From Fusobacterium mortiferum (GTDB taxonomy: Bacteria > Fusobacteriota > Fusobacteriia > Fusobacteriales > Fusobacteriaceae): 64,000 nt of DNA. Where the stretch lies: the NCBI RefSeq assembly GCF_016900045.1, contig NZ_JACSNP010000009.1, forward strand, positions 1 through 64,000, written 5' to 3'. Position 1 is the first letter of the stretch, and each line of letters begins with the position of its first letter. The notes under the pieces were generated by a model. The model was not told the DNA's origin. It worked only from the letters and a program-made list of their open reading frames with translations, and made no database searches. This document shows, in pieces, positions 7,359-23,177 of the stretch. Made by a program: the position numbers and the translations under genes.

Positions 7359-9872
7359 ATGAAGGAAAGATTGAAAAAGTATATTAGGAAAAGAGCAATA
7401 TTTGGTTTAACAATACTTTCATTTTTTATGATTCTATCTATTTTTTCACTATTAGTAGTGAAAGATAAAATTTTAGATAATATACAGCTAATGGGGAAAC
7501 AAATATCAGAACAATTATTAATAAAAGAGAATGAAAAAATTGGAAATTATGAGATGTTTGTTAGAACTGCAGGAATTTGGTTAAATGACCAAATAGAGAA
7601 ACACAAATCTGATGATGAGTTAAGAGAGTGGATGAAAGAATATACAGATTATATTAATCAGGAGTTAAATACTAAAAAAGTAGAAATCTATGCGGCTATA
7701 GATAAAAAAATTATAGGTGTTACTTATTGGAAAGGAAATGAACATTTTAATGTAGATGAAGCTGAGTGGTATAATTTGGCTATATTGGCTAACGGAAAAG
7801 TTATTTATACAGATACTTATAAAGATATCAGAACAGGAGAGTCGAGTTTTACAGTAGCTAAAAAAATAAATGAGAATGGAGATGTTTTAGCTGTAGATAT
7901 ATATTTAGACGAGTTATCAGAACCAGAATTTTATAAGGATTTACCTCTTAGAAGTTCATATTTTCTTTGTGATGCTAAGGGAAATATAGTTTATAGTATA
8001 CATAGAAGTAAAAATAGTGAAAATGAAATAAATAGATATATTCAAAAGGTAATATATGAGATATTAGATGGAAAACATGATGTAGCAGATTCTTTTACTA
8101 TTGATTTAGAAGGGAAAAAAAGAGGAGTGTATTACTCCTTATCAAAAAATGGATGGATATCTATATTAACAATACCGTATACCACTTTATTAATTGAAGT
8201 AGAGGAATTATATTACTTTTATATAGGAAGCTTCATATTACTTATATTAATAGGAATAGTGTCTTATTATAGAGAAGTTTGCTTGAATAAAAAAATAGAA
8301 GAAACTAATGAAGCTGTAAGAGTTTTAGGAAATTCATATTATGCTATTTATAGAATTGATTTTAAAAAAGAGAGATATTTTATGTTAAAGGGTTCTGGGT
8401 ATATGCAAGAACTATTATCTCGTTCGGGAAATTATCAAATTTTTATAGAAGCTTTAATCGAAGTAATAGAACCAGAAGCAAGGGAAGAATTTAGAAAAGG
8501 ATTTTCATTAGAAAGTATCAGAGATTTAGTTAAAAGAAGAGTAAAGGATTTTGGTGGGGATTTCAAAAGAAAATTTGGTTCAGAATATAAATGGGTAAAC
8601 GTAAGAGTTCTTTATGATGAAGCTTTAAGTATTAATGAAGTTATTTTATGTTTTAAAGAGATTAATGATGAGAAGAAGCAACAATTAGAACACACAGAAT
8701 TACTAAAAGATTCATTGAAAACAATGGAAAAAAATATGAAATCTAGAAATATATTTTTCTCAAATATGTCCCACGATATGAGAACTCCTTTAAACGGAAT
8801 AATTGGTTTATCTGAGTTGGCAAAATCTTATGTAGAAAGTCCAAGTGAAATATTAAAATATCTAGAAAAAATTAATAGTTCAAGTAAACAACTTTTAAAT
8901 CTAATAAATGATATTTTAGATTTGTCTAAAGCAGACTTCGGAAAATATAAATTGAATAGAGAGGAATTTTCTCTAAAAGAGAGTATAGAAGAGAGTCTAA
9001 TTCTTTTTGAAGTAGATGCTAAAAAAATGGAAAAAGATTTTGAAGTTATATATAAAATAGAAAATAATAGAGTTATTGGTGATTTTAATAAAATACGTCA
9101 AATTTTAAATAATATTATCTCAAATGCTTTTAAATATACAAGAGTTGGAGATAAAATAACTTTAACAGTAGAAGAGATAAAAAGAGAAAAGTATTCTAAT
9201 TTCCGTTTTGAAGTAAAAGATACCGGTTATGGAATGACTGAAGAATTTTTAGAAAGAATATTTCTTCCTTTTGAAAGAGAAACAAGATTTGGAGCTAAAG
9301 GTATAAAGGGAACTGGTCTAGGAATGCCGATTGTAAAAAATCTAGTTACACAATTAGAGGGAGAGATTGCTATAACAAGTGAAATAGAGAAGGGAACAAC
9401 AGTTTCTATAATTATTCCATTGGAGATTTCTAAAGAAAAAGTGGAAGTAAAAGTCAAAGAAGAGAACGGATTTGAAACTTCACTTGAAGGAAGAACAATA
9501 TTAATTGCTGAAGATAATGAGATTAATATGGAAATAGCTACAGAATTTTTACAAATGAAAGGATTAAATATAATACAAGCTTGGAATGGATTGGAGGCAG
9601 TTGAGAAATTTGAAGCTTCTAAAGTAGGAAGTATTGATGTTATACTAATGGATATGCAAATGCCAGAGTTAGATGGATGTGAAGCAGCTAAAAGAATTAG
9701 AAATCTAGGTAGAAGTGATGCTAAGAGTATTCCAATAGTGGCAGTAACAGCCAATGCTTTTCCTGAGGATATATCAGCAACAACTTTAGCAGGAATGAAT
9801 GGACATATATCTAAGCCGATAGATTTTAATATATTAGAGAAGAAATTGAAAGAATATTTAAAAAGAAAGTAA
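7359..9872 (+). CDS. Membrane hybrid histidine kinase (Cache-like sensor, PAS-like, HisKA, HATPase, REC)
   Basis: Residues 13-34 and about 285-304 are membrane segments around an extracytoplasmic Cache-like sensor of about 250 residues. A PAS-like linker (about 315-440) leads to HisKA with MSHDMRTPLNG, phospho-acceptor His near 472. The HATPase domain has an N box (IISNAFKYT), DTGYGM and GTGLGM. A C-terminal receiver starts near 715, with phospho-acceptor Asp near 765 in LMDMQMP. The next gene, 8 nt downstream, is a REC-HD-GYP protein, so a relay to c-di-GMP degradation is the natural reading. The signal is unknown. It forms the left border of the fibre island. Confidence 0.92.
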   Translation: MKERLKKYIRKRAIFGLTILSFFMILSIFSLLVVKDKILDNIQLMGKQISEQLLIKENEKIGNYEMFVRTAGIWLNDQIEKHKSDDELREWMKEYTDYINQELNTKKVEIYAAIDKKIIGVTYWKGNEHFNVDEAEWYNLAILANGKVIYTDTYKDIRTGESSFTVAKKINENGDVLAVDIYLDELSEPEFYKDLPLRSSYFLCDAKGNIVYSIHRSKNSENEINRYIQKVIYEILDGKHDVADSFTIDLEGKKRGVYYSLSKNGWISILTIPYTTLLIEVEELYYFYIGSFILLILIGIVSYYREVCLNKKIEETNEAVRVLGNSYYAIYRIDFKKERYFMLKGSGYMQELLSRSGNYQIFIEALIEVIEPEAREEFRKGFSLESIRDLVKRRVKDFGGDFKRKFGSEYKWVNVRVLYDEALSINEVILCFKEINDEKKQQLEHTELLKDSLKTMEKNMKSRNIFFSNMSHDMRTPLNGIIGLSELAKSYVESPSEILKYLEKINSSSKQLLNLINDILDLSKADFGKYKLNREEFSLKESIEESLILFEVDAKKMEKDFEVIYKIENNRVIGDFNKIRQILNNIISNAFKYTRVGDKITLTVEEIKREKYSNFRFEVKDTGYGMTEEFLERIFLPFERETRFGAKGIKGTGLGMPIVKNLVTQLEGEIAITSEIEKGTTVSIIIPLEISKEKVEVKVKEENGFETSLEGRTILIAEDNEINMEIATEFLQMKGLNIIQAWNGLEAVEKFEASKVGSIDVILMDMQMPELDGCEAAKRIRNLGRSDAKSIPIVAVTANAFPEDISATTLAGMNGHISKPIDFNILEKKLKEYLKRK

Positions 9873-9883
9873 AGGAGTAGATG

Positions 9884-10939
9884 ATGAATAATAGAGATAC
9901 GATTCTAATAGTTGATGACCAAGAAATCAATAGAGCAATATTAAGTCAAATTTTTATAGAGAAATATCAAATTGTAGAAGCTGAAAATGGAAAAGTGGCC
10001 TTAGAATATATAAAAAATAATAAAGAAAGAATAGTAGCGATATTATTGGATATAATAATGCCAGAAATGGATGGAATGGAGCTATTAAGAATTTTAAAAA
10101 AAGAAGAACTAGAAGAGAATATTCCTATTTTTTTAATAACAGCAGATACCTCTCAAGAGAAAATGAGAGAGGGATATGAATTAGGGGTAAATGATATTAT
10201 CGAAAAACCATTTGTTCCGTTTTTTCTAGAAAAAAGAATAAATAGTATTGTAGAATTATATAAAACAAAGGAAAGATTAAATAATATAGTTGAACATCAA
10301 GCTGAAATTATTGAGGAGAAAGTAAAGGATATAAAAATTTTGAGTAACACTATGCTTGAAACATTAGCCTTAGCTATTGAGTTTAGAAGTGGAGAGACAG
10401 GTCAACATGTACAAAATATAAGAAAGTTAACTTTTAAACTTTTAAGAAAATTAAAACAGGAAAATTATGAAGAATGTGTAAACTTAACAGATGAAGATAT
10501 AGAAAATATTACAAATGCTTCTATACTACACGATATAGGGAAAATAGCTATTCCAGATGCTATATTAAATAAACCAGGAAGATTTACTCCAGAAGAGTTT
10601 GAAATAATGAAAACTCATTCAGCAAGGGGAGGCGAGATAATAGAGAGGATACCATGTAAAGAAAAAAGACCACTATTTAGATATGCTTATGATATTTGTC
10701 GTCATCATCATGAGCGTTGGAATGGAAAGGGATATCCTGATGGTTTAGTTGGAAAAGAGAATAAAATTTGGGCTCAAGTAGTAGCTTTAGCAGATGTTTA
10801 TGATGCTTTAATAAGTAAGAGATGTTATAAGGATTCATATGAAAGACAGAAAGCTGTTGATATGATAGTGAATGGAGAGTGTGGAGAATTTAATCCAGAG
10901 TTGATAAAAGCTTTTATAGAGATAGAGAAAGAATTATAA
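9884..10939 (+). CDS. Response regulator with HD-GYP c-di-GMP phosphodiesterase domain (RpfG type)
   Basis: The receiver (1-125) carries the phospho-acceptor Asp near 56 in LLDIIMP and a C-terminal Lys in EKPF. A coiled linker leads to an HD-GYP domain with HDIGK (His near 216), HHHERWNGKGYP and LADVYDAL; all metal-binding positions I can see are present, so it should be active against c-di-GMP. The ribosome-binding site AAAGGAG is followed by two adjacent ATGs (9881 and 9884), and the second has better spacing. It is coupled to the upstream hybrid kinase. It should lower c-di-GMP and so act on the riboswitch that begins about 60 nt after its stop. Confidence 0.92.
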   Translation: MNNRDTILIVDDQEINRAILSQIFIEKYQIVEAENGKVALEYIKNNKERIVAILLDIIMPEMDGMELLRILKKEELEENIPIFLITADTSQEKMREGYELGVNDIIEKPFVPFFLEKRINSIVELYKTKERLNNIVEHQAEIIEEKVKDIKILSNTMLETLALAIEFRSGETGQHVQNIRKLTFKLLRKLKQENYEECVNLTDEDIENITNASILHDIGKIAIPDAILNKPGRFTPEEFEIMKTHSARGGEIIERIPCKEKRPLFRYAYDICRHHHERWNGKGYPDGLVGKENKIWAQVVALADVYDALISKRCYKDSYERQKAVDMIVNGECGEFNPELIKAFIEIEKEL

Positions 10940-10958: not shown

Positions 10959-10987
10959 TTGCTTTTTTTAAAGTAATATAGTATAAT
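10959..10987 (+). promoter_or_regulatory. Promoter for the first riboswitch-controlled operon
   Basis: TTGCTT at 10959-10964, a 17-nt spacer and TATAAT at 10982-10987 place transcription start just before the aptamer at about 10999. Confidence 0.75.
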
Positions 10988-10998
10988 AAAAAAAAGAA

Positions 10999-11064
10999 AT
11001 GTGGCAAAATAACGGCAACGTTATGACGCAAAGCTATAGGGTCTTATGGAGACAGCCAGTTGCA
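10999..11064 (+). promoter_or_regulatory. c-di-GMP-I (GEMM-I) riboswitch aptamer 1
   Basis: The order of conserved elements matches the class: GGCAAAA at 11003, a stem ATAACG/CGTTAT capped by a GCAA tetraloop, GACGCAAAGCTATAGGG starting near 11025, a GTC/GAC stem, and AGCCAGTTGC ending at 11063. GCAA at 11004-11007 can pair with TTGC at 11060-11063 to close the aptamer. The following terminator reuses TGC of that closing strand, so the folds appear mutually exclusive. This predicts that ligand binding favours read-through (ON), which is inference. It sits upstream of the pilin/HD-GYP/usher operon. Confidence 0.92.
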
Positions 11065-11104
11065 ACTTAAAAGATATAAAAATCTTTCAAGTTGCATTTT
11101 TTTT
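11061..11104 (+). terminator. Riboswitch 1 expression-platform terminator
   Basis: TGCAACTT (11061-11068) pairs with AAGTTGCA (11089-11096), with AGAT/ATCT inside, followed by T8. The 5' arm overlaps the aptamer's closing strand by three bases. Confidence 0.85.
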
Positions 11105-11133
11105 AATCAAAATAAAAAGTTTAGGAGGATATT

Positions 11134-11595
11134 ATGAAAAAATTATTATTATTATTTGGAATTATGTCTAGCTTATTAATGGGAGAGAATGAAAAATCTG
11201 TAGATGTACAAGTTACAGCAAGGGTAATAAAACCTATTGAAGTTGTAAATAAAAAGGATGTAGAATTTGGAACTATTGTAGTTGGACAAGAGAATGTAAA
11301 AGCAAAGTCAAATGGTTCTATAACTTTTTCTGGAGAGGAAAAAATAAGAGTAAGTTGGAAAGCTGAAGATGGTCACGGATTTAATAAGATAAATGATCCG
11401 ATAGTGGTTACTATAGCTAATGGAGAAAATGAGATTAAGACACTAATATCAGCTGAAGAAGTTTCAAATGGAGTTTTAAACTTAAATGGTACTCAAGAAA
11501 CAATAGTGTTTAGTGGAAAAATAGATAAAGTACCAGAAGTGGCTCCAGGTAGTTATTCTGGAAACTTCACAGTAAGAGCAGAGTATATAGATTAA
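11134..11595 (+). CDS. Secreted pilin-like protein, DUF4402-like (paralogue 1)
   Basis: A signal peptide (about 1-17) precedes a beta-rich domain of about 135 residues. VQVTARVI, DVEFGTIVVGQ and the C-terminal PGSYSGNFTVRAEY recur, with changes, in the proteins at 20044 and 21523, so these three form one family. The pattern resembles DUF4402 fimbrial-type domains. The ATG follows GGAGGA and is the first gene behind c-di-GMP riboswitch 1. I infer a minor or adaptor pilin of the fibre. It lacks two segments found in its longer paralogues. Subunit function is inferred from chaperone and usher genes in the same operon. Confidence 0.75.
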   Translation: MKKLLLLFGIMSSLLMGENEKSVDVQVTARVIKPIEVVNKKDVEFGTIVVGQENVKAKSNGSITFSGEEKIRVSWKAEDGHGFNKINDPIVVTIANGENEIKTLISAEEVSNGVLNLNGTQETIVFSGKIDKVPEVAPGSYSGNFTVRAEYID

Positions 11596-11624
11596 TAAAA
11601 AAGAGAAATAGAGGGAGGATTGAG

Positions 11625-13730
11625 TTGCGAGTGAAAAGATTAGTATTTTATTTTTTCCTAATAACTAGTATAGTTTTTGGGGGAGAAGGGTTAAAGGTAG
11701 GGTATCCTTTAAATCTTACAGATATGTATTTTTACAAAGATTTAGAAAGTATTGCTTATAAAGGAATTTATAGTGATTTATTAAAGGATTTTAATAAAGA
11801 TAGTAAATATGATTTTGAGTATCAAGGTGGAAATGAAACAGGAGATTTAGTTTTAAGAGTAACACAAACTGAAGAAAATGGGAATTATAATTATATAGTT
11901 ACTCCATTTAGTTATAGAGCGGTTATGTTAGTAAATATGGATAGTATGTTTACTAAGGTAGATGATTTATATGGACTAACAGTAGGATATGTAAAAAATC
12001 AAAGAGGAATAGAAGCGATTGAAGGTAGAAATAAAGGAGTAGAGTTTTATAAGACTTCTTTTGAAAATGAAAATCAAGCAATATTAGCTTTAAAAAATAA
12101 AAAAGTAGATGCTATTGTTTTAAAAGATTGGAATGAAAGTAATCCATTAGAAAAGAATTTTAGAGTAATTAGTACTGTACTTACAAAGGAACAAATTGGA
12201 GTTAATAAAACAAAAGTTGATTTATATGAAAGTCTAAAAAAATATTTTGAAACTTTAAATGATACGACTCTTAACGAGATTGTTGATAAAAATAGAATAG
12301 CTTTTTATACATACCTTTTAAAAGATACTCCAGATTATAGTTTTATAAAGGAGAAATATAAGAGTTTAAAAATATCTTTACCAAAAGATAAATATTATTT
12401 ACCAATTTACTATGAAGAAAATGGAATATATAAAGGGTTATTATTTAATATCTTAGATGATATAGAAAAAATAGTAGGAATACCCTTTGAAGTTATAGCT
12501 GATAGAGAAAAAGCTGATATAAGAGGATTATATATAAGTAAGGAAACAGATGCAAATCTTGTAGCTACAAAACCTTACTATAAAACTGACATAGCTGTTG
12601 CAAGTACAAAAAAATCTTATTTGATGACAGAGATAAGCGATTTGGATAACTCAAAAGTTATAGTAGTTGAAAATCAAACTGTAGGAAAGTATGTAGAAGA
12701 TAGAACTGAGGGAGTAACTTTGGTGACAGCTCCTACAATTCAAGAGGGAGTAAATAAACTAATTGCTGGAGAGGGAGAATATATAGTTTCATATAGTAAC
12801 CCTTTAAGAGGGGTAATTTTAAATACCTTTGTTGATAAAAAGGTGGGAATTATAGGGAGAATTAATGAAAAATTTGGTATCTCTATGGGAGTAAAAGCAG
12901 ATGATGAAGCACTATTTAATATAATTAATACAATATTAAATAGTTATTCAGTAGAAGAAACAACATTAGAAACAAATAGAACAGCTCAAGTAATAATAAA
13001 AACAGACTATTCTATGGCTGCTAAAATTGGAATTCCATTAGCAATTATAGCTCTTATATTAGCAATAGCTTTAAGAAAGGCTGTAATTAATAAAAGAAAA
13101 GCAGAAAAAATAGGTAATACTTTATTAGAAACAATGGTAAAGGTAAATCAATTAAAACAAACAGAGTCAGGATTACATGCTAAAAGAATATCTCTTCATG
13201 CTGAAGTTTTAGGAGAGAAGTTAGGATTATCAAAAGATTTAATAGATGGAATGAAACAATATGCAATAATCCATGATATTGGAAAAGTTATTGTTCCAGC
13301 TGATATCTTAAATAAGAGTGGAAAGTTAACTCCAGAAGAGTTTGAAGTAATGAAAAAACACTCAGAGTTTGGATATGAGATTATAAAAGAACTTGAATTA
13401 GGTAAGATAGCAGAAAATGTAGCTAGATATCACCATGAAAAATGGAATGGAAAAGGATATCCATTAGGATTAAAAGGAGAAGAGATTCCATTAGAGGGAA
13501 GAGTAATAGGTATTTTAGATGTATATGATAGTATGAGAGAGGATAAAGTATATAAAAAAGGATTATCTCATCAAGAAGCGATTGAAATTATTAAAAATGA
13601 GAGCGGGGTAAGTTTTGATCCAAAAATAGTAAAAGTATTTTTAGAAAATGAAAAACTATTTGAAGATATCTATAACAAAACTTCTGGAAAAATAGATCTA
13701 GTAGAAGAGTACTATAGAATAATGAAATAA
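11625..13730 (+). CDS. Transmembrane c-di-GMP phosphodiesterase: tandem solute-binding-like sensors plus HD-GYP
   Basis: A signal peptide is followed by two periplasmic solute-binding-protein-3-like modules (about 22-225 and 235-455), a BvgS-like tandem flytrap layout. One membrane segment (about 468-486) leads to a cytoplasmic HD-GYP domain with HDIGK (His near 550), YHHEKWNGKGYP and LDVYDSM, apparently intact. It should degrade c-di-GMP in response to a periplasmic ligand. It sits inside the operon controlled by a c-di-GMP riboswitch, implying feedback. The start is a TTG at 11625, six bases after GGGAGG; a GTG two codons on is possible but worse spaced. Confidence 0.9.
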   Translation: MRVKRLVFYFFLITSIVFGGEGLKVGYPLNLTDMYFYKDLESIAYKGIYSDLLKDFNKDSKYDFEYQGGNETGDLVLRVTQTEENGNYNYIVTPFSYRAVMLVNMDSMFTKVDDLYGLTVGYVKNQRGIEAIEGRNKGVEFYKTSFENENQAILALKNKKVDAIVLKDWNESNPLEKNFRVISTVLTKEQIGVNKTKVDLYESLKKYFETLNDTTLNEIVDKNRIAFYTYLLKDTPDYSFIKEKYKSLKISLPKDKYYLPIYYEENGIYKGLLFNILDDIEKIVGIPFEVIADREKADIRGLYISKETDANLVATKPYYKTDIAVASTKKSYLMTEISDLDNSKVIVVENQTVGKYVEDRTEGVTLVTAPTIQEGVNKLIAGEGEYIVSYSNPLRGVILNTFVDKKVGIIGRINEKFGISMGVKADDEALFNIINTILNSYSVEETTLETNRTAQVIIKTDYSMAAKIGIPLAIIALILAIALRKAVINKRKAEKIGNTLLETMVKVNQLKQTESGLHAKRISLHAEVLGEKLGLSKDLIDGMKQYAIIHDIGKVIVPADILNKSGKLTPEEFEVMKKHSEFGYEIIKELELGKIAENVARYHHEKWNGKGYPLGLKGEEIPLEGRVIGILDVYDSMREDKVYKKGLSHQEAIEIIKNESGVSFDPKIVKVFLENEKLFEDIYNKTSGKIDLVEEYYRIMK

Positions 13731-13758
13731 ATGCAATAGGCAAAAAGAAGGTGAAGAC

Positions 13759-15189
13759 TTGAAAAATAAATTTTTGATTTTCTTATTTCTTGTTTGTTCT
13801 TCAATAGGTGTTTTGGGGGAAAATATTGGAAATATAAAAGAAGAGTTTTTTATAACAGAATATACAGAAGAAAGCTCAACTGAAAATCTAAAAATAGAAC
13901 AGGAATTGATGATACAGACTGTAGATCCTGTGAAATTAGCAGATAGTTATTCAAGAAGAGTAACAGGCTTAATTTATGATACTCTTTTTGTAAATAGTAA
14001 TGGAGAGATTGTTCCAAATTTAGTTGAAAGATATAATTGGCAAGAGGAAAATAAATTATTTATAAAACTTAAATCAGGAATAAGATTTCATGATGGAAGT
14101 GAGCTTACTTCTAAAGATATTGAGAATTCGTTAATGAGATTAAAGAAAGAGGGTACAGTATCAGAGATGTACAACTCTATTCTAGGAATAGAGATAGTAG
14201 ATAAGTATAGTTTTATAATTAATTTAAATATAAGAGATGGATTATTATTAAATGCTTTATCAAACTCTTTTTCAAGTATTGTAAAAGTGGATAATGGTAA
14301 ATTTTATGGAACAGGACCATATTCAATAGAAGTTTTTAATGAAGGTGTTTTAAAATTAAAGAATTTTGATAAATGCTTTGATAGAAATGAAAATATGTAT
14401 AAAGAGATAGAGATAAGATGGGATCTAAATCCTAATCAAAGAATCATAAAGTATACGAATGATATTAACAATTTTGTTTTTGATTTGTATAAAGAGGATA
14501 TAGAGAAGGCAGAGGATTATGATTTACTAAGTGATGAAACAGTAGTAGAGAAAAGTCCAATTTATGATACTTTAGGATTGATGTTTGGAAAAAAATATAC
14601 TATAGATGAGAGAGTAGCTATAGAGAGAGCTATATATCAAAATGTAGATGGTTTTTTCCCAGAAGATTTAGTTGAAGCAGAGCTTTCTAAGATTGATAAA
14701 AATTATAATTTAAATGAAGCTAAAAAATTAATTAGTGAAGTAGGTTTAAAATCTAAGAAAATAGATATAATGGTCTTAAATACTGAACATAATATGAAAA
14801 TTGCAAATTATGTTAAGAAAAATTTAGAAGACGCTGGAATGAAAGTAACTTTACTTCCTCATGGAATGATATCTTTTTATCAAAAACTTTATGCTAGAGA
14901 TTATGATACTGCAATATACAATATAAATATTAGTACAGTTTATCCAATATTAAGTTTGGAAAAAATACTGATCTATGATATAGGGGATAAGGAAACAGCG
15001 AATGCTTTACTTCCTTTTATTGAATTGATGAGAAAAGAAAAAAATCCTGAGAAAGTAAAAAAAATATTTGATAAGGTTTTATCTTTGGTTAATAAGAATA
15101 TGTTATATATTCCTATTGAACATAAGGAAACTTTCCAAATAGCTGAAGAAGAGAATATGAAAAGATTTCATAAGATAGTAGGATATTAA
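13759..15189 (+). CDS. Family 5 extracellular solute-binding protein (oligopeptide/dipeptide type)
   Basis: A signal peptide (about 1-20, no lipobox cysteine seen) precedes an SBP_bac_5 fold. Family-like stretches include QTVDPVKLADSYS, LIYDTLFV, the FHDGSELTSKDI region and GTGPYSI. At 476 residues it is slightly short for OppA/DppA proteins. No ABC permease or ATPase is nearby, so it may serve as a sensor or partner of the flytrap HD-GYP protein 28 nt upstream rather than as a transporter part; that is inference. It starts at TTG 13759 after GAAGGTG. It belongs to the riboswitch 1 operon. Confidence 0.85.
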   Translation: MKNKFLIFLFLVCSSIGVLGENIGNIKEEFFITEYTEESSTENLKIEQELMIQTVDPVKLADSYSRRVTGLIYDTLFVNSNGEIVPNLVERYNWQEENKLFIKLKSGIRFHDGSELTSKDIENSLMRLKKEGTVSEMYNSILGIEIVDKYSFIINLNIRDGLLLNALSNSFSSIVKVDNGKFYGTGPYSIEVFNEGVLKLKNFDKCFDRNENMYKEIEIRWDLNPNQRIIKYTNDINNFVFDLYKEDIEKAEDYDLLSDETVVEKSPIYDTLGLMFGKKYTIDERVAIERAIYQNVDGFFPEDLVEAELSKIDKNYNLNEAKKLISEVGLKSKKIDIMVLNTEHNMKIANYVKKNLEDAGMKVTLLPHGMISFYQKLYARDYDTAIYNINISTVYPILSLEKILIYDIGDKETANALLPFIELMRKEKNPEKVKKIFDKVLSLVNKNMLYIPIEHKETFQIAEEENMKRFHKIVGY

Positions 15190-15213
15190 TCAGATAAAAG
15201 GGGGAGAAGGGAA

Positions 15214-16032
15214 ATGAAAAGATTATATTGTATAATACTAAGCTTGATATTATTTTCTTTTTCTTATGGAGACAATGAGTATACAGCTTATATAAAAAGA
15301 GTTAACTCAATTGGTATTTTTATAGGAGATACAACACAAGGTGTAGAGTATAATTTTGATATATGTATTGAACCAAGAAATAATGGAAATGCTTTAGAAG
15401 ATGATTATTTTATTAAAGAAGATAAAGCAGAGAATAGCAAAATAATTATGACTCTAGATAAGATACAATTGCTTGAAGGAAGACCAAAATATTACTTTCC
15501 TATTAACAGTGATAATAAGTTAGATGAGATGAAATTGAAAGTGACTGGAAGAATAAATTTAAAAAATGGAATTGAGAATCTAGTTGGTACAGAGAGAATA
15601 AAAATTGGTGATATACAAGAAAAAAATCATAAAAGAGGAGTTTATTTAACATTTGACTATAGTATACTAAAAAAAGAGGATACAGTAAGTTTAAGAGTTG
15701 TAAGAGATATGGACTTAGGAGTAGCTGTAGCTGGATATCCATTAAGAAGTAGTAAACCAGCTATTGTAGAGATAAAAGGAATAAAAAGTAATGGAGCAAG
15801 AGTAGAAGTAGAAAAAGAAGTAGCAATCATAAATGAAGCTAAGAAAAGCTCTTTAAATGTAATGCTTGACGTAGAAAATTATAAAGCACGTCAAACTAGT
15901 GATAAATCAGTTATAGAGTTAAAACCAACAAATGATTCTGTAGAGATAAAAATAAATGGATATAGTAAAACAGAAAAAAATACGCCATCTGGAGTATATA
16001 AAGGAGCTTTTAAAGTGAGAGTGATTTACTGA
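15214..16032 (+). CDS. Secreted two-part protein with pilin-like C-terminus (tip-adhesin candidate)
   Basis: A signal peptide (about 1-19) is followed by an unrecognised beta-rich region (about 20-160) and a C-terminal part (about 160-272). The latter contains DLGVAVAG and ends SGVYKGAFKVRVIY, echoing the pilin-like paralogues in this operon. An N-terminal private domain joined to a C-terminal pilin-like domain is the usual plan of chaperone-usher tip adhesins. Its position just before the usher, with a 1-nt TGATG overlap, supports a subunit role. The sequence alone does not show binding activity. Confidence 0.65.
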   Translation: MKRLYCIILSLILFSFSYGDNEYTAYIKRVNSIGIFIGDTTQGVEYNFDICIEPRNNGNALEDDYFIKEDKAENSKIIMTLDKIQLLEGRPKYYFPINSDNKLDEMKLKVTGRINLKNGIENLVGTERIKIGDIQEKNHKRGVYLTFDYSILKKEDTVSLRVVRDMDLGVAVAGYPLRSSKPAIVEIKGIKSNGARVEVEKEVAIINEAKKSSLNVMLDVENYKARQTSDKSVIELKPTNDSVEIKINGYSKTEKNTPSGVYKGAFKVRVIY

Positions 16033-18662
16033 TGTGGAAACTAAAAAATAAGTTATCAATCATAGGGATAATTGTTTTTTTATTAGGAACTCAGACAGTG
16101 TATACTAAAAATACAGAGAAAGATATCGAGGATGTATATTTAGAGATAAGAGCTGAAAGATTAAATGATGATTTCTATATGATAAAGTATGATAATAGTA
16201 AAAATGAAGCATATATAGGGTTAAAATCATTTTTCTTCTTTTTACAATTATTTAGTTTAGATGTAAATACTCAAAACTATACAGTTAGTGGAATGATAAA
16301 CGGAAAAGATATATCTACAAGATTTACTCAAGATGAAGCCTTTGTAGATGAAAATGATGAGTTATATGTAAAAAGTAAAGCATTAATTGAAAAAATGGAT
16401 TTTGAGTATCTAACTTTAGACATGGAAACTTTAGTCTTAGATGTAAATCCTAATTTCGTATTACCTTATGAAGAGAAAGAGCAAGGAAGAGTAGAGAGAC
16501 TTAGATTAGAGGAAAGAAAAGTACTTGAGGGAGAGCAATTTGATTTAGAGATGAAAAGAAAATTGATTTCTCCAGGGATATTGAAGTTAAAGTATGACTT
16601 AAATGATGTAAAAAATAGTGATGATTATAACTTTAGTTATGAGTATGGTTCACAACTTCTATATGGTGAACTTTATGTATCTGGAGATATAAAGCCTGAA
16701 AGTGAATTAAATGAGATCAATTTAAAATATACTGATATTATAGAAGATAATGATTTAACAATAGGATATTTAGATACTACTTTTCCTAGTTTTGCAAGTT
16801 TAGAGTCAGATTTAATAGGGATAAGTTTGGATAACTACGATACATATTCACAAACAGAGAATGGAATAACAGTAATTAGAGGAGAAGCAGATGATGCGGA
16901 TTCGATAGAGTTATATAGAAATGGAATGTTAGTAGATTACTTAACTTCTCCACCAAGAAATTTTGAATTTAGATTGGCAGATGGAAGTACTAATGCAAGA
17001 TATTTATTAAAAATATATTATAAAAATGGTGGAATAGAGGAGAGATATGTATATTCTTTAAATGATATGGATGCTCTTGCAAAAGGAAAATGGAAGCCAG
17101 TTATTCAAATAGGAAAAACAAAAGAAAAAGGAGATTTTCAAGCATTAGTTAAGAGTTACTATGGGGTAACAGATAAGTTTACTCTAGGAGCAGGATATCT
17201 GAATTTAATTAACTCAGATGGAAGAAACTTGAAAATGATAGAGAATGACTTTATCTATAATACAAGACATCTGAATTATCCAACTTTAATTAACTTTACG
17301 AATTATTATGAAGTAGATAAGAATGAAGAGAGTTATAATTTAAGTATTAGTCAAAATATAAATGATTATGAACTAAAATTTACAGAGGAAAAGTATTCAC
17401 CATTTGTTGTAGGAGAAGAGGGAACAAAAAAATATGATTCGTTATCTTTGTACAAGCCTTTTGAATATAATTCATATGAAATAGGAGTGTCTAAAACTAC
17501 AGAGTTAATGAGATCCTTTAATACAAATGAGAGCATAGAAAATACTACAAAAGATATTTATGGTGCTTTCTATACATCCTATTTTAATCCATGGTCATTT
17601 TCTTTTAGAGTAACTAGAACTCTAAGTGGAGACTATAAATATATAACTTATGAACCAAGTATCTCTTATTCGGGTTGGGCACTTATAGTTTTAGATGCAG
17701 AAATAACAAAGTATGATGATTATAGTAAATATTTTGAATCATATGGATTAAGAGCAGATAAAAGAAGAGTAGAGATATTGAAAGATAGATTGTATATGGA
17801 TCTAGGTTTAGAAGCAAAATTTGTAAAGGGAGTTACTTCAGGAAATAAAGATAGCTTTGTTTATGGAATTACATTCAGTATGGATTTAGAAGATTATATC
17901 AATATAGATGTAAATAGCGATATAGAGGTTGCAGACAATGGAAAAAGTACTTCTACTACTGGTTTAACAGTAACTAAAGCAATAAATTTAGCAACTCCTT
18001 TAGCAAAAATGGATAATGATGTATCTGTTAATAACTATACAATTCAAGGAAAAGTTTTCTTAGATAGAAATGGAAATGGAGTATATGATAAGAAAATAGA
18101 TGTTCCTTTGGAGGGTGTTGGAGTTTTAATAAATAACCAAGAATTTTTAACAGATAAGTATGGAAACTATCTAGGAGATAATTCAATTATAGACGAGATA
18201 ATAACACTAGATGTAAATAGAAAAACAATAGATCCTATGTATAAAAATTCTAAGGGAACTATAAGAATAAAAGCACGTAACTCTAACTCTTTAAAGGTAG
18301 ATATTCCGATCGAAGTAGTATCAATGCTAACTGGAAATATTTGGAATACAGAAGACTTTACAGAGAGAGAGTTTACTCAAAATATTGTTATGTCAAGTAT
18401 TCAATTAGAAAAAGATGGAAAGGTTTATAAAGAGATAGACCCAGAGTTTGATGGATTATTCTTCTTTGACGATATTCCTCCTGGAAAATATAATATGAAA
18501 TTTATTTATTTAGGACAGGAAAATGTTAAGTTTTCACCTGAAAATATAGAGGTAAATGTAAAATTACAAGATCCAGATGAAGGAGAGTATTTTGAAGGTT
18601 TAGATACTAAGATGGTAAGAGAAGAAGAGGTAGAAAATACAGAGGATATTAATAATTATTAA
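16032..18662 (+). CDS. Divergent fimbrial usher-like outer-membrane protein
   Basis: 876 residues with a signal peptide (about 8-25). The N-terminal region (about 30-150), with ELYVKSKALIEKM and LVLDVNP, resembles the periplasmic domain of alternate (CS1/TcfC-type) ushers. A beta-barrel region follows, interrupted near 285-345 by a plug-like module (ELYRNGMLVDYL, YLLKIYYKNGGIEERYVYS). The C-terminal part (from about 672) has VFLDRNGNGVYDKK and an FFFDDIPPGKY motif, a Cna-B/carboxypeptidase-like fold common at usher ends. It would secrete and anchor the pilin-like subunits. It is too divergent for me to name the class confidently. Confidence 0.78.
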   Translation: MWKLKNKLSIIGIIVFLLGTQTVYTKNTEKDIEDVYLEIRAERLNDDFYMIKYDNSKNEAYIGLKSFFFFLQLFSLDVNTQNYTVSGMINGKDISTRFTQDEAFVDENDELYVKSKALIEKMDFEYLTLDMETLVLDVNPNFVLPYEEKEQGRVERLRLEERKVLEGEQFDLEMKRKLISPGILKLKYDLNDVKNSDDYNFSYEYGSQLLYGELYVSGDIKPESELNEINLKYTDIIEDNDLTIGYLDTTFPSFASLESDLIGISLDNYDTYSQTENGITVIRGEADDADSIELYRNGMLVDYLTSPPRNFEFRLADGSTNARYLLKIYYKNGGIEERYVYSLNDMDALAKGKWKPVIQIGKTKEKGDFQALVKSYYGVTDKFTLGAGYLNLINSDGRNLKMIENDFIYNTRHLNYPTLINFTNYYEVDKNEESYNLSISQNINDYELKFTEEKYSPFVVGEEGTKKYDSLSLYKPFEYNSYEIGVSKTTELMRSFNTNESIENTTKDIYGAFYTSYFNPWSFSFRVTRTLSGDYKYITYEPSISYSGWALIVLDAEITKYDDYSKYFESYGLRADKRRVEILKDRLYMDLGLEAKFVKGVTSGNKDSFVYGITFSMDLEDYINIDVNSDIEVADNGKSTSTTGLTVTKAINLATPLAKMDNDVSVNNYTIQGKVFLDRNGNGVYDKKIDVPLEGVGVLINNQEFLTDKYGNYLGDNSIIDEIITLDVNRKTIDPMYKNSKGTIRIKARNSNSLKVDIPIEVVSMLTGNIWNTEDFTEREFTQNIVMSSIQLEKDGKVYKEIDPEFDGLFFFDDIPPGKYNMKFIYLGQENVKFSPENIEVNVKLQDPDEGEYFEGLDTKMVREEEVENTEDINNY

Positions 18663-18677
18663 AAAGGAGTAATAACA

Positions 18678-19583
18678 TTGAAGAATTCAAATTTAGTGAA
18701 AATTTTTATGATTATGTTTCTATTTACCTGTTCTTATGCTGAAGTAAACAGAGTTGCAAAACTTAGTGATAAAACAGTAAAAAATAATGTAGTATATCTG
18801 AAAGGGGAGAAAACTCCCTTTTCGGGTAAAATACAAGATGGGGGAATAGAGCAAGAGTACAGAAATGGAATTAAAAATGGAATATTTAAAGGAAAAATTC
18901 AAATAGATGGAAAAGATTACCTATATGAAGGAAAATATGTTGAGGGGATCAAGGACGGAATTTGGACTTTAAAATATTTAAATGGCAAAAAAAGAGCTGT
19001 AGTTGAGTATAGTTATGATAAGCCAGTAAATAAATGGAAATACTACTATGAAAATGGGCAATTAGAAAGTGAAGAAACTTTTGATAAGAGTGGAGTACTT
19101 TCAGGAGATGTTGCAGTTTATGATGAAGAGGGAAATGTGTTGAAAAAAGCCAATTATTTGAATGGTTTTTTACAAGGAGAAGTAGTTTTTTATGAAAGTA
19201 AAGGGGTACTAGATACAGTAGCAAATTTTGATAAAGGAAAACTTAATGGAAAAGTAGAAGTTTTTTCGATAAATAGTTTACAATTAGAGGGAAATTATAA
19301 AGACAATAAAAGGGTATCAGTATGGAAACTTCATTATACAAGTGGTGATTTAAAGGTTACTGTTCCATATAGAAATGGATTAAAATCTGGAAAGTCTATT
19401 GTATATGATAGAGCAGGAGGAATAGTTCAAGTAAACTATTATAAAGATAACAATGAAGTTACAGCAGATGGAAAATTAATAAGAGAAGCAAAACTATTTA
19501 AGGATGGAATAGTAGAAAAATTTAAAAAGTTTAATGCTAATCTAAATAGCTTAAAGGTCAATAAAGCTTTATCAGAAGTTTAG
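18678..19583 (+). CDS. Secreted MORN-repeat (YwqK-like) protein
   Basis: A signal peptide (about 1-21) precedes about ten short repeats of the MORN_2 type, such as YENGQLESEETFD, YDEEGNVLKKANY and YKDNKRVSVWKLHY. Such repeats are often annotated YwqK-family antitoxin, but no toxin gene is adjacent. Here it lies between usher and chaperone in a fibre operon, so an envelope role such as assembly or anchoring is more likely; no function is shown. It starts at TTG 18678, eight bases after AAGGAG. Its stop codon touches the ribosome-binding site of the next gene, indicating translational coupling. Confidence 0.8.
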   Translation: MKNSNLVKIFMIMFLFTCSYAEVNRVAKLSDKTVKNNVVYLKGEKTPFSGKIQDGGIEQEYRNGIKNGIFKGKIQIDGKDYLYEGKYVEGIKDGIWTLKYLNGKKRAVVEYSYDKPVNKWKYYYENGQLESEETFDKSGVLSGDVAVYDEEGNVLKKANYLNGFLQGEVVFYESKGVLDTVANFDKGKLNGKVEVFSINSLQLEGNYKDNKRVSVWKLHYTSGDLKVTVPYRNGLKSGKSIVYDRAGGIVQVNYYKDNNEVTADGKLIREAKLFKDGIVEKFKKFNANLNSLKVNKALSEV

Positions 19584-19594
19584 TGGAGGAAATA

Positions 19595-20044
19595 ATGAAA
19601 AAAATAATACTTATATTTATCTTAGCAATATTCTCAACATTGAGCTATTCACTGAACTTCTCGATAGCTCCTACAAAATTTGAAGTAGATTTAAATAAAA
19701 GAGAGACACAAGAAGCTTTTATAATTAATAATACTTCTTCTCCTCTAAGAATAGAGGTATATTTAGATACACTTGAGGGATATGAAGAAAAAAATTTAAA
19801 CTCTAATATAGTAATTTTCCCTAAAAAAGTATCAGTGAGACCAGGGGGAAAACAGACAGTAAGATTTAGAGTTAAAGATACAGAGAACCTAAAAGATGGA
19901 GAATACAGAAGTTTATTAGTATTTAAAGAGATTCCAAAGGATGTAAAAACTACAGGAACTAATAAAAGTGATGAGATAATTACTGAATTTTCATTTATAA
20001 CTGAATTAGCGGTTAGAATAATAGGAGTAAAAGGAGAGAAGTAA
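19595..20044 (+). CDS. Half-length PapD-like periplasmic chaperone (N-terminal domain only)
   Basis: The signal peptide (about 1-19) is followed by one immunoglobulin-like domain with FSIAPTKFEVD, FIINNTSSPLRIEVY, PGGKQTVRFRVK and GEYRSLLVFKE, the subunit-binding first domain of pilus chaperones. It ends at 149 residues, just after that domain; the paralogue at 20586 continues for a second domain of about 90 residues. An in-frame GTG at 19583 is rejected because GGAGG lies between it and the ATG at 19595. The stop overlaps the next ATG by one base (TAATG). It may be a functional one-domain chaperone or an eroded duplicate. Confidence 0.82.
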   Translation: MKKIILIFILAIFSTLSYSLNFSIAPTKFEVDLNKRETQEAFIINNTSSPLRIEVYLDTLEGYEEKNLNSNIVIFPKKVSVRPGGKQTVRFRVKDTENLKDGEYRSLLVFKEIPKDVKTTGTNKSDEIITEFSFITELAVRIIGVKGEK

Positions 20045-20565
20045 TGAAGAAGATATTAAAAATATGCTCACTTCTATTTACTATTTCAACTTTATCCTTA
20101 GCTCTTGAAAGCTATGTAAGTACTACAGATGAAGAGGTTGAAGCAAGATTAAAGATAAGTGCTACAGTTGTTGAGGATGTAAGTGTAGAAACTCAAAGTG
20201 TTGAATTTGGAAGTGTAGTATCGGGAGTAGAGAGAAGTAATCCCAAAGTAGATGGGAAGATAAACATTACAGGAGAGATTGGAAGAGGGATAACTATTGC
20301 AATTAACCACAATGGAAATAGAATAGATATGGCAGATAATAGCAAACAGGTAGAATTGAAAAATTCTAAAGATGAGAAATTAGAAGGAATAAGTTATTAT
20401 CCAGAGTTTTCTAGTGGTATAGAGAAAAAGAAGATAACAGGAAATAAATTTATATTAAATAGTAGAACGGCTACTATGAATGTCGGTGGAAAATTAGTAG
20501 TTCCAAAAACAATAAATACAGGAAACTATACTACTAATATGGCAATAAGAGTTTACTATAATTAA
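20044..20565 (+). CDS. Secreted pilin-like protein, DUF4402-like (paralogue 2)
   Basis: 173 residues with a signal peptide (about 1-20). ISATVVEDVSVE, SVEFGSVVSG, a GKINITG strand and a closing INTGNYTTNMAIRVYY align with the proteins at 11134 and 21523. It sits between the half and full chaperone genes, coupled to the former by a 1-nt overlap, which supports a secreted-subunit role. The domain assignment to DUF4402 is by resemblance. It belongs to the riboswitch 1 transcript and does not have its own riboswitch, unlike paralogue 3. Confidence 0.75.
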   Translation: MKKILKICSLLFTISTLSLALESYVSTTDEEVEARLKISATVVEDVSVETQSVEFGSVVSGVERSNPKVDGKINITGEIGRGITIAINHNGNRIDMADNSKQVELKNSKDEKLEGISYYPEFSSGIEKKKITGNKFILNSRTATMNVGGKLVVPKTINTGNYTTNMAIRVYYN

Positions 20566-20585
20566 GAGAATAGAAGGAGAGACAC

Positions 20586-21332
20586 ATGAAAAAGTTAACA
20601 GCGAGTTTATTGTTTTTTATTTTAGGTGTTATGTCATACTCTTTAAACTTTACTGTTTATCCAACAAGATTTGAGGTAGATAGTAAGAAAGTAACTACTG
20701 AAGAGATGACAATTGTAAATAATACAAATGGTCCACTGAGAGTAGAGATATATCCAGAGGGGGATATAGAGTTTGGAGAAGAGTATAATTTGAATTCAAA
20801 TATTAAACTTTTCCCTAAGGCTGTAGCAGTAAAACCAGGAGGTAAGCAAGCTGTAAGATTTAGAGTAAAACCTGACACAAAAATGAAAGATGGAGAGTAC
20901 AGAAGTTATATTACATTTAAAGAGATACCTTATGATATAAAATCTACAGTTAGTGAGGAAAAGAAGGAAGCTGAAGGGGTAACAACAGGAATTAACTTTA
21001 TAACAGAGATATCAATACCAGTGTTTAGTATAGGAGAGAATAAGATAGTAAAGGGAGAGATGTCGAACTTTAAGTATCATTATGATGGCAAAGATATGGC
21101 ATTTTCTTTTGATACAAAGTCTGAAGGGAATACTGCTGTAATCTATAAATATAGCTTAAAAATAGATGGAGAGGAGCCTTTAGAGGGAATACTTGGTTAT
21201 AGCAAAAGAGATGGAGAAGGAAAGTTAGAAATAAGTATGGAACTTAAAGAGGGATTAAAAGGAAAGAGTGGAACATTGAGAATTTATGACCAAGTTAATA
21301 AAGAGTATTTTAACCAAAAAATAAAATTATAA
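20586..21332 (+). CDS. Full-length PapD-like periplasmic pilus chaperone
   Basis: 248 residues. The signal peptide (about 1-18) precedes the first immunoglobulin-like domain (about 20-145), with NFTVYPTRFEVD, IVNNTNGPLRVEIY, PGGKQAVRFRVK and GEYRSYITFKE. The second domain (about 150-248) ends in GTLRIYDQ. Domain 1 is close to the half-length protein at 19595, so these arose by duplication. Chaperones of this fold hold pilin subunits in the periplasm and hand them to the usher. It is the last gene before riboswitch 2. Only an A-rich stretch follows, with no obvious terminator. Confidence 0.88.
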   Translation: MKKLTASLLFFILGVMSYSLNFTVYPTRFEVDSKKVTTEEMTIVNNTNGPLRVEIYPEGDIEFGEEYNLNSNIKLFPKAVAVKPGGKQAVRFRVKPDTKMKDGEYRSYITFKEIPYDIKSTVSEEKKEAEGVTTGINFITEISIPVFSIGENKIVKGEMSNFKYHYDGKDMAFSFDTKSEGNTAVIYKYSLKIDGEEPLEGILGYSKRDGEGKLEISMELKEGLKGKSGTLRIYDQVNKEYFNQKIKL

Positions 21333-21348
21333 AAAAATAAAAAAAAGA

Positions 21349-21377
21349 TTGCAAAAATAAAAAAACAGGTGTATAAT
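21349..21377 (+). promoter_or_regulatory. Promoter for the second riboswitch transcript
   Basis: TTGCAA at 21349-21354, a 17-nt spacer and TATAAT at 21372-21377 lie just upstream of aptamer 2. The layout copies the promoter of riboswitch 1. Confidence 0.8.
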
Positions 21378-21400
21378 TAAAACATAAAGAAAGAAGAATA

Positions 21401-21466
21401 TTTGGCAAAGCAGTGGAAACGCTGTGACGCAAAGCTATAGGGCCTTCTAAAATGGCAGCCAGTTGC
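21401..21466 (+). promoter_or_regulatory. c-di-GMP-I (GEMM-I) riboswitch aptamer 2
   Basis: GGCAAAG, a CAGTG/CGCTG stem with the canonical GAAA tetraloop, GACGCAAAGCTATAGGG, a GCC/GGC stem and AGCCAGTTGC follow in order, sharing the core with aptamer 1. A hairpin terminator starts at the very next base. Unlike riboswitch 1, the terminator arm does not overlap the closing strand, so the switching direction cannot be read off. It controls the pilin-like gene at 21523. Confidence 0.92.
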
Positions 21467-21497
21467 AGGATAATTTAATTAAATTATCCTTTTTTTA
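21467..21497 (+). terminator. Riboswitch 2 expression-platform terminator
   Basis: AGGATAATTT and AAATTATCCT pair around an AATT loop and lead into T7. The stem abuts the aptamer. Confidence 0.85.
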
Positions 21498-21522
21498 TTA
21501 GAAAATTTTAGGAGGGATTTAT

Positions 21523-22020
21523 ATGAAAAAATTATTATTATTAGCAGGAATCTTAGTAGTTGGAGCAGCATCTTTTGCAGGAGGAGCTGATTGGAGTAGC
21601 AATTCAGTAGAAAAAGAATTACAAGTAACAGCAACTGTTATAGAGAATTTAAAAGTACAGACACATGATGTTGAATTTGGAAGAGTAGCAGCTGGAATGC
21701 AAGGTATACAACCAAAGAATAATGGAAAAATAGAAGTTGAAGGAGTAAAAGGAGCTAGTGTAAAAATAGAGTTGAGACATGGAGAAAATGAAGTGAAAAA
21801 AGGAGAAGAAATTGCTTTTGGGGAAAAAGGTTCGCCTATAGTAAGAACTCCTTTATATTATACTCCAGATTTTGAAGAAAAGGTAATAACTTTAAATGGA
21901 GATGGGTATGGAAGTGTTGATCTTCAAGGTAGTTTAAGAGTGCCAGAAAATACTCCAGTAGGAGATTATGCTGCAGTTTTAACTACTAAAGTTTATTATA
22001 CAGGGTTTGCTAATGAATAA
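21523..22020 (+). CDS. Secreted pilin-like protein, DUF4402-like (paralogue 3, candidate major subunit)
   Basis: 165 residues with a clear signal peptide ending near ASFAGG. The mature part has LQVTATVIENLKVQ, DVEFGRVAAGMQG, GKIEVEG and the closing TPVGDYAAVLTTKVYY, matching paralogues 1 and 2. It has its own consensus promoter, its own c-di-GMP riboswitch and a GGAGGG ribosome-binding site, followed by a terminator. A separate strong unit is what one expects for the most abundant fibre subunit, so I propose it as the major pilin; that is inference. Confidence 0.78.
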   Translation: MKKLLLLAGILVVGAASFAGGADWSSNSVEKELQVTATVIENLKVQTHDVEFGRVAAGMQGIQPKNNGKIEVEGVKGASVKIELRHGENEVKKGEEIAFGEKGSPIVRTPLYYTPDFEEKVITLNGDGYGSVDLQGSLRVPENTPVGDYAAVLTTKVYYTGFANE

Positions 22021-22050
22021 TTTAATAAAAGCATAATTAGAGATTATTAT

Positions 22051-22083
22051 ATACCCTAGTGGGAAACTACTAGGGTATTTTTT
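22051..22083 (+). terminator. Intrinsic terminator between the pilin-like gene and the porin gene
   Basis: ATACCCTAGT at 22051-22060 pairs with ACTAGGGTAT at 22069-22078, followed by T6. The porin gene begins only 15 nt later with no clear promoter, so some read-through is likely. Confidence 0.88.
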
Positions 22084-22097
22084 ATAGAGGGAGAGAA

Positions 22098-23177
22098 ATG
22101 AGAAAATTAGGATTATTATTAGGAACATTAGTACTAGGAGTATTAGCTTCAGCTAAGGAAATAAAGCAAGCTCCACCAGAGATATTAGTAGAAGAACCAG
22201 TAAAAGTTATAGAAAAAGAGATAATAGTATATAGAGACAGGGAAGTAGATAATAGCTTTAGACCTAATGGTGAGTTAAATCTTGAGTATAGATATTATGG
22301 AGATACAGAGGGACAAAATAAAAATAGTTGGAATGGGGATAATAATAATTATTCAAGAACTCAATTAGAAGGAGTTATAAATACAACTGAGAGTCAAAAG
22401 TTAGAGTTTAGAATAAGAGATTATAACAATTTAAATGAAGATGAGGTAGATAGACCTAATTATACAGAGACAAGGTTAAGATACTACTTTGATCATGGGG
22501 TATTGTCAGAAAGCAAAATTAATTTTACTTCAAGACTACACTATATGAAAAATGGGAATGATAACCATGATGAACAAGAGATAGAGTATCAAGCAAGATT
22601 TAATTTTGTAGATTACCTATTTAGCAATGAATATGTAAAACCTGTAGATCTAACAATAGCTCCATATTATAGATATACTTGGAATCAAAATAATAGTTCA
22701 GACTATGACAATGAGTTAGGGCTTTATTTTAACTTTCAATATGATTTACCATTTGGTTTTGGTACTCAACTAGAAGTAGATACATTTGGATTTCATTTTT
22801 ATGGAAATGATAAATATGGAAATGTAATTGATGAAGATGGCAAATATAGTGATAAAAATACAGATTTAGCTGTAAAATTTTATATTACTCAAAATACTAT
22901 ACTATATAGTAACGAGAACTTAGTGTTAGATTTTTTTGTTGAAGCTGGATATGACCCATATACATGGACAGCGAAACATGAGAAGGGAACTGATGCTACT
23001 ACTTACTCCTTAAAAGCAGATCCACAGCTAAGATTATTTTATAATGTAACTCCAGAGTATCAAGTTTATACTTTAATTGGAGCAGAGTATAGAAATTGGG
23101 ATATAACTACAGAATCCACAGCTAAAAATTGGAGATGGCAACCATTTATGGCTTTAGGATTTAATATGGTATTTTAA
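22098..23177 (+). CDS. FomA-family major outer-membrane porin
   Basis: 359 residues. A signal peptide (about 1-19) is followed by a short proline-rich, charged segment ending in IIVYRDREVDNSFRPNG, which is characteristic of fusobacterial FomA-type porins, then an all-beta barrel with alternating aromatic residues ending in GFNMVF, a terminal-Phe outer-membrane signature. FomA is a voltage-dependent porin and adhesin in Fusobacterium nucleatum. Here the gene follows the riboswitch-controlled pilin after a terminator, so it might be partly under c-di-GMP control. I give no symbol because Fusobacterium carries several paralogues. Confidence 0.9.
   Translation: MRKLGLLLGTLVLGVLASAKEIKQAPPEILVEEPVKVIEKEIIVYRDREVDNSFRPNGELNLEYRYYGDTEGQNKNSWNGDNNNYSRTQLEGVINTTESQKLEFRIRDYNNLNEDEVDRPNYTETRLRYYFDHGVLSESKINFTSRLHYMKNGNDNHDEQEIEYQARFNFVDYLFSNEYVKPVDLTIAPYYRYTWNQNNSSDYDNELGLYFNFQYDLPFGFGTQLEVDTFGFHFYGNDKYGNVIDEDGKYSDKNTDLAVKFYITQNTILYSNENLVLDFFVEAGYDPYTWTAKHEKGTDATTYSLKADPQLRLFYNVTPEYQVYTLIGAEYRNWDITTESTAKNWRWQPFMALGFNMVF

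Follow-up and report, generated by a model that had tools for sequence, protein, structure and literature searches.

The locus described here lies in a 64,000-nt stretch of Fusobacterium mortiferum DNA (contig NZ_JACSNP010000009.1, positions 1 to 64,000), hereafter the window. It combines a predicted chaperone-usher pilus gene set with two riboswitches, RS1 and RS2, and genes for the turnover of c-di-GMP. Its features are as follows.

7359..9872, +, hybrid sensor histidine kinase HK1 (Pfam HisKA, HATPase_c, Response_reg and a weak dCache), 8 nt before the response regulator gene
9881..10939, +, response regulator with an HD-GYP phosphodiesterase domain (Pfam Response_reg and HD_5; HDIGK and HHERWNGKGYP)
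10959..10987, +, putative RS1 promoter, TTGCTT-N17-TATAAT, read directly from the sequence
10993..11067, +, RS1 aptamer, full-length RF01051 match (56.3 bits, E 2.5e-8)
11061..11104, +, RS1 terminator (hairpin 11061-11096, -14.6 kcal/mol, U tract)
11134..11595, +, probable pilin subunit A, 153 aa (sub-threshold DUF4402 match, E 1.7e-4; pilin family alignment)
11625..13730, +, solute-binding/transmembrane/HD-GYP protein, 701 aa (SBP_bac_3 1.4e-6, HD_5 6.6e-31; HDIGK and HHEKWNGKGYP)
13759..15189, +, periplasmic family 5 substrate-binding protein (SBP_bac_5 1.1e-24), without adjacent transporter genes
15214..16032, +, two-part subunit of 272 aa (sub-threshold DUF4402 match, E 6.4e-5, at residues 179-272; place beside the usher conserved)
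16032..18662, +, predicted outer-membrane usher, 876 aa (AlphaFold model, Foldseek FimD/PapC, family profile PapC)
18678..19583, +, MORN_2-repeat protein with a signal-like N terminus (MORN_2 1.1e-12); its place between the usher and chaperone genes is conserved
19583..20044, +, PapD-type chaperone, N-terminal domain only (PapD_N 28.5 bits, cut-off 23; family alignment)
20044..20565, +, pilin subunit B, 173 aa (DUF4402 25.6 bits, cut-off 25.2)
20586..21332, +, two-domain PapD-type chaperone, 248 aa (assigned through its family; no Pfam match of its own)
21349..21377, +, putative RS2 promoter, TTGCAA-N17-TATAAT, from the promoter scan
21394..21470, +, RS2 aptamer, full-length RF01051 match (59.6 bits, E 4e-9)
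21467..21496, +, RS2 terminator (hairpin 21467-21490, -8.8 kcal/mol, U tract)
21523..22020, +, pilin subunit C, 165 aa, by modelled fold (AlphaFold 2, pLDDT 85.2)
22051..22083, +, strong intrinsic terminator after pilin C (hairpin 22051-22078, -18.9 kcal/mol)
22098..23177, +, FomA major outer-membrane porin (NCBIfam equivalog NF049909, 396.5 bits, cut-off 350)
23295..25418, +, CHASE-GGDEF diguanylate cyclase (REED-x5-GGDEF motif)
25437..27398, +, hybrid sensor histidine kinase HK2, 18 nt downstream of the cyclase gene

A preliminary description of this DNA had proposed that two c-di-GMP-I aptamers with a common core, each with an N17 promoter upstream and a terminator hairpin downstream, lead an operon of about 10 kb and a single pilin-like gene, and our analysis recovered all of these elements. 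In the covariance search both aptamers scored well above the curated cut-off of RF01051 (c-di-GMP-I, GEMM-I; 35 bits), and a genome-wide search of the source assembly (99.95% complete, 283 contigs) found c-di-GMP-I riboswitches at these two places only. The core GACGCAAAGCTATAGGG is common to RS1 and RS2 and occurs exactly twice; two matches with up to three mismatches were obtained in 0 of 100 shuffles. The RS1 promoter is absent from the scan list because its -35 element is weak. Promoter-like matches are not commoner in the sequence than in shuffles, so the location of the two putative promoters directly 5′ of the aptamers is the stronger argument for them. Both aptamers keep a G at the discriminating position, which we take to be an A in cGAMP sensors, and both are predicted to bind c-di-GMP.

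RS1 leads nine ORFs separated by gaps of -1 to 29 nt and reaching to 21332 (approximately 10.2 kb), and RS2 leads one pilin gene closed by the strong terminator; the two riboswitches would control the expression of these units. The preliminary description had also placed a FomA-type porin alongside this set. The identity of the porin stood, whereas its placement did not, the gene lying outside 10,959-22,083 and behind the terminator. We considered FomA as part of the RS2 unit and left this unproven, as the strong terminator sits 20 nt before the start codon; with no room there for a separate promoter, FomA must rely on read-through or an unseen start, and its coupling to RS2 is at most loose.

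The operon had been taken to hold a complete usher, chaperone and pilin set on family resemblance, and structure prediction, fold search and family profiles now argue for each of the three. Single-sequence searches of PDB and Pfam with the usher gave nothing useful, and the window protein has no Pfam Usher match of its own; family profile and fold were needed. The AlphaFold 2 model (pLDDT 80.6) has 24 barrel strands by manual count, a plug-like small domain inserted after strand 6, an N-terminal domain and C-terminal beta domains. In a Foldseek search with this model, FimD/PapC structures fill the first 18 places among the PDB matches (E 2.5e-21), at 10-13% identity and with TM-scores of approximately 0.4 over the whole chain. 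PapC is also the best PDB match of the family profile (E 0.0016, covering the plug together with a portion of the barrel), and 3 of 27 usher relatives match Pfam Usher (best 2.2e-6). By its modelled fold the 876-aa gene product belongs to the outer-membrane ushers.

Among the chaperones, 16 of 22 aligned family members match PapD_N, the product of the 19583 gene itself scoring above cut-off, and a PDB profile search found no relatives. The window chaperone at 19583-20044 (153 aa) and one in the usher locus L095 (13230-13673, 147 aa) consist of the N domain only, and we know of no single-domain chaperones of this PapD N-terminal kind; a relative in L084, 50% identical to them, has 247 aa. Another pilus gene lies directly 3′ of both single-domain chaperones.

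In the pilin family, DUF4402 is matched by 18 of 25 members and SCPU by 5 of 25, with individual Pfam scores near or below cut-offs; the members were hand-picked and their hit coverage checked, an iterative search having drawn in chaperones via shared signal peptides. A PDB profile search found no PDB pilin. The model of pilin C points to an Ig-like pilus subunit fold, its top Foldseek matches being FimG, the PapG pilin domain and Caf1 (probability score 1.00, E only approximately 1e-3). The N-terminal extension of the pilin consensus has an alternating hydrophobic pattern (AxVxVxAxV), making it a candidate for donor-strand exchange. The 272-aa subunit is likely to be the tip adhesin, its C-terminal half being pilin-like, as in tip adhesins. 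Pilin C is likely to be the major subunit, its separate RS2 unit suggesting that it is made in excess.

Some chaperone-usher systems make coats (Caf1), and the several different subunits, the two-part subunit and the MORN_2 protein in the operon could likewise fit an usher whose product is not a thin pilus but a coat resembling a capsule, or pilin-like adhesins in short polymers at the surface. We consider such a product unlikely, since the combination of chaperone, usher and pilin-type subunits argues for a polymer; it would in any case still be chaperone-usher export, with the product altered and the control unaffected.

The arrangement of the terminators bears on the direction in which the riboswitches would act. 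The 5′ arm of the RS1 terminator, UGCAACUU (11061-11068), contains C11063, which by alignment is the equivalent of the ligand-pairing C, and this C is taken up by the terminator in RS1 and in most of the 28 aptamers compared. Since the ligand-pairing C and the bases beside it are part of the RS1 terminator, a complete aptamer and a complete terminator are mutually exclusive. In the pilM ON switch the terminator likewise sequesters the ligand-pairing C75 (PMC9262584). The RS2 terminator begins at 21467, one base past the equivalent C21466, so that the register of the terminator relative to this C is -2 in RS1 and +1 in RS2. In RS2 a possible P1 helix pairs UAUUU (21399-21403) with GGAUA (21468-21472); its 3′ strand overlaps the 5′ arm of the terminator, with which the helix would compete. 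Folding of the full-length RNAs favoured the terminator state in both cases, and therefore the ligand must act during transcription (kinetic switching). From this analysis RS1 is probably an ON switch, which would turn the pilus on with c-di-GMP. RS2 is probably an ON switch as well, its direction being less certain because its terminator starts one base after the ligand-pairing C.

The reverse direction, in which c-di-GMP would increase termination and shut the pilus off, would resemble the C. difficile flagella class-I switches, which are OFF (PMC11477304), and the RS2 terminator can indeed coexist with the aptamer core in folding. Such a direction is improbable given the mutual exclusion of aptamer and terminator in RS1, in which most relatives are alike, and given that no competing antiterminator was seen in the RS2 folds. 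The different registers could alternatively mean that RS1 is ON and RS2 OFF, in which case subunit composition would shift with c-di-GMP. This too is improbable, as the possible P1 of RS2 still overlaps the terminator arm and the downstream riboswitches in relatives mostly have the terminator layout of RS1.

A set of 98 Fusobacteriota genomes, including Fusobacterium, Cetobacterium and other Fusobacteriaceae, was searched for the usher family and for c-di-GMP-I riboswitches. Of two scans of the relatives' contigs, the first returned no matches and the second found ten relatives only; riboswitch positions were taken from Rfam coordinates, because many escaped a regular expression written for the aptamer core. 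Ushers were found in 37 of the 98 genomes, all in the family of the window, and c-di-GMP-I riboswitches also in 37. A same-strand riboswitch lies within -10 to +12 kb of 30 of the 87 usher matches, against approximately 1.2 expected from random riboswitch placement, a figure that takes related genomes as separate and so overstates their independence. Riboswitches stand 4.3-5.2 kb before orthologous ushers, often with a second 4.3-5.4 kb after, and the core order across genera is riboswitch, (pilin), HD-GYP, family 5 binding protein, tip subunit, usher, MORN, chaperone. The riboswitch-usher arrangement is thus conserved in Fusobacteriaceae. The family 5 binding protein (13759-15189) keeps its position beside the solute-binding HD-GYP gene and perhaps delivers a ligand to that sensor. 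In one usher locus (L080, 2441-15628) there are four c-di-GMP-I riboswitches, three of which each precede their own pilin-chaperone pair, which suggests that these pairs are subunit cassettes.

Downstream genes were mapped for approximately 107 riboswitches. Pilin, chaperone or usher genes, often lone pilin genes, follow about half of these, and others precede GGDEF or HD-GYP genes, small MarR-type regulators or other surface proteins. In one genus a conserved riboswitch lies 5′ of a gene of approximately 97 aa (L102, L107, L108, L112, L116, L119, L125, L128 and L138), apparently a MarR-type regulator. No c-di-GMP-II riboswitch scored above cut-off across Fusobacteriota; sub-threshold matches (approximately 10 near-identical ones per genome; G009, G010 and G006, and L089 and L090 near 12-16 kb), at least one of them near an apparent rRNA operon, are probably spurious.

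In the source genome domain searches found one GGDEF gene, at 23295, and no EAL, PilZ or MshEN domain. The cyclase has an intact RLGGDEF motif with an RxxD inhibitory site and is by motif a diguanylate cyclase; it retains the aspartate that is presumably the residue altered in cGAMP-making cyclases. There are three HD-GYP genes, of which the two in the window have intact HD and GYP motifs, as predicted for active phosphodiesterases; the third, in usher locus L095, is altered (HDIGL for HDxGK, GYL for GYP). The protein encoded at 11625..13730 has periplasmic solute-binding domains, one transmembrane helix (hydrophobic segment near 462) and a cytoplasmic HD-GYP domain. All motif-intact recognised turnover enzymes and both riboswitches thus lie within approximately 20 kb. 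The HD-GYP gene of the operon, the lone cyclase beside it and the conservation in the family, none of them named in the preliminary description, are the most telling features of the locus. With no EAL, PilZ or MshEN domain found, the recognised c-di-GMP readers are limited to the two riboswitches, the search having covered known domains, so that readers of other kinds would escape it.

Across 61 genomes of the family, riboswitch and GGDEF gene occur together in 37, the GGDEF gene by itself in 7 and neither in 17, and no genome has the riboswitch only (Fisher p 6e-10, counting the genomes as independent with kinship uncorrected). Within genera g1, g3, g5 and g11 the two vary in concert. Of the seven usher-bearing genomes without a riboswitch, six also lack GGDEF. 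Usher loci without a riboswitch exist, two of them intact in the window's own genome (L094 and L095), and the HD-GYP gene is also missing in L094 and in its counterpart L097, from a cyclase-less genome. In the single-cyclase species G029 and G035 the cyclase lies within approximately 2 kb of a riboswitch, and in G036 the two are on different contigs. These data led us to two linked proposals: that one cyclase, two intact phosphodiesterases, two riboswitches as the only effectors and one chaperone-usher pilus form a single-purpose circuit, and that across the family the riboswitches are gained and lost together with the cyclase, whereas usher loci are retained in the absence of riboswitches. 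Taken jointly, we judge these proposals to be evenly poised between right and wrong. That the ligand is cGAMP instead of c-di-GMP is very improbable: some GEMM-I aptamers, pilM among them, do sense cGAMP (PMC9262584), but the G in both aptamers, the tracking of riboswitches with GGDEF genes and the retained aspartate of the cyclase all speak against it.

We consider it likely that the locus encodes a chaperone-usher pilus together with a c-di-GMP circuit of its own, which may work as follows. The CHASE-GGDEF cyclase would make c-di-GMP, and two HD-GYP phosphodiesterases, a phosphorelay-fed response regulator and the protein with periplasmic solute-binding domains, would degrade it. Each riboswitch would bind c-di-GMP during transcription, and the folded aptamer would deny the terminator its 5′ arm, allowing RNA polymerase to read on. 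Read-through at RS1 would yield the usher, the chaperones, minor pilins, the likely tip subunit and one phosphodiesterase; an ON switch that drives a phosphodiesterase would constitute negative feedback, and the RxxD site of the cyclase may provide a second. RS2 would yield one pilin from its own terminated unit, possibly in the high amount needed for a major subunit.

In C. difficile, c-di-GMP also raises pilus transcripts through a riboswitch, but there a c-di-GMP-II riboswitch serves a type IV pilus operon with no chaperone or usher, and the class-I switches are OFF (PMC11477304). Geobacter pilM, a GEMM-I riboswitch of the same aptamer superfamily and with the same mode of termination as RS1, differs in being a cGAMP sensor that serves other pilus genes and not a chaperone-usher set (PMC9262584). 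The FimD/PapC pili are alike in usher barrel, plug, C-terminal domains, PapD-type chaperones and pilin fold, whereas the window system differs in its low usher identity, its DUF4402/SCPU-type subunits, its solute-binding, HD-GYP and MORN genes and its riboswitch control. With archaic (Csu-type, sigma clade) pili the comparison was drawn from subunit families: the SCPU family, matched by 5 of 25 pilins, is common to both, and most pilins of the window's family match DUF4402 better. All parts are of known kinds, and their wiring was not found in the searchable literature: in openly accessible published papers we found no report pairing a class-I riboswitch with a chaperone-usher pilus, and no Fusobacteriaceae paper on chaperone-usher pili or their control by c-di-GMP riboswitches.

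Networks of c-di-GMP usually have many enzymes and targets, which makes it difficult to match particular enzymes to particular targets. If this genome indeed has a single cyclase and RNA-only effectors, its input, output and feedback could each be tested on its own. If our reading is true, this would be the first coupling of class-I riboswitches to chaperone-usher pili in the literature searched, and the Fusobacteriaceae would gain a regulated adhesion device.
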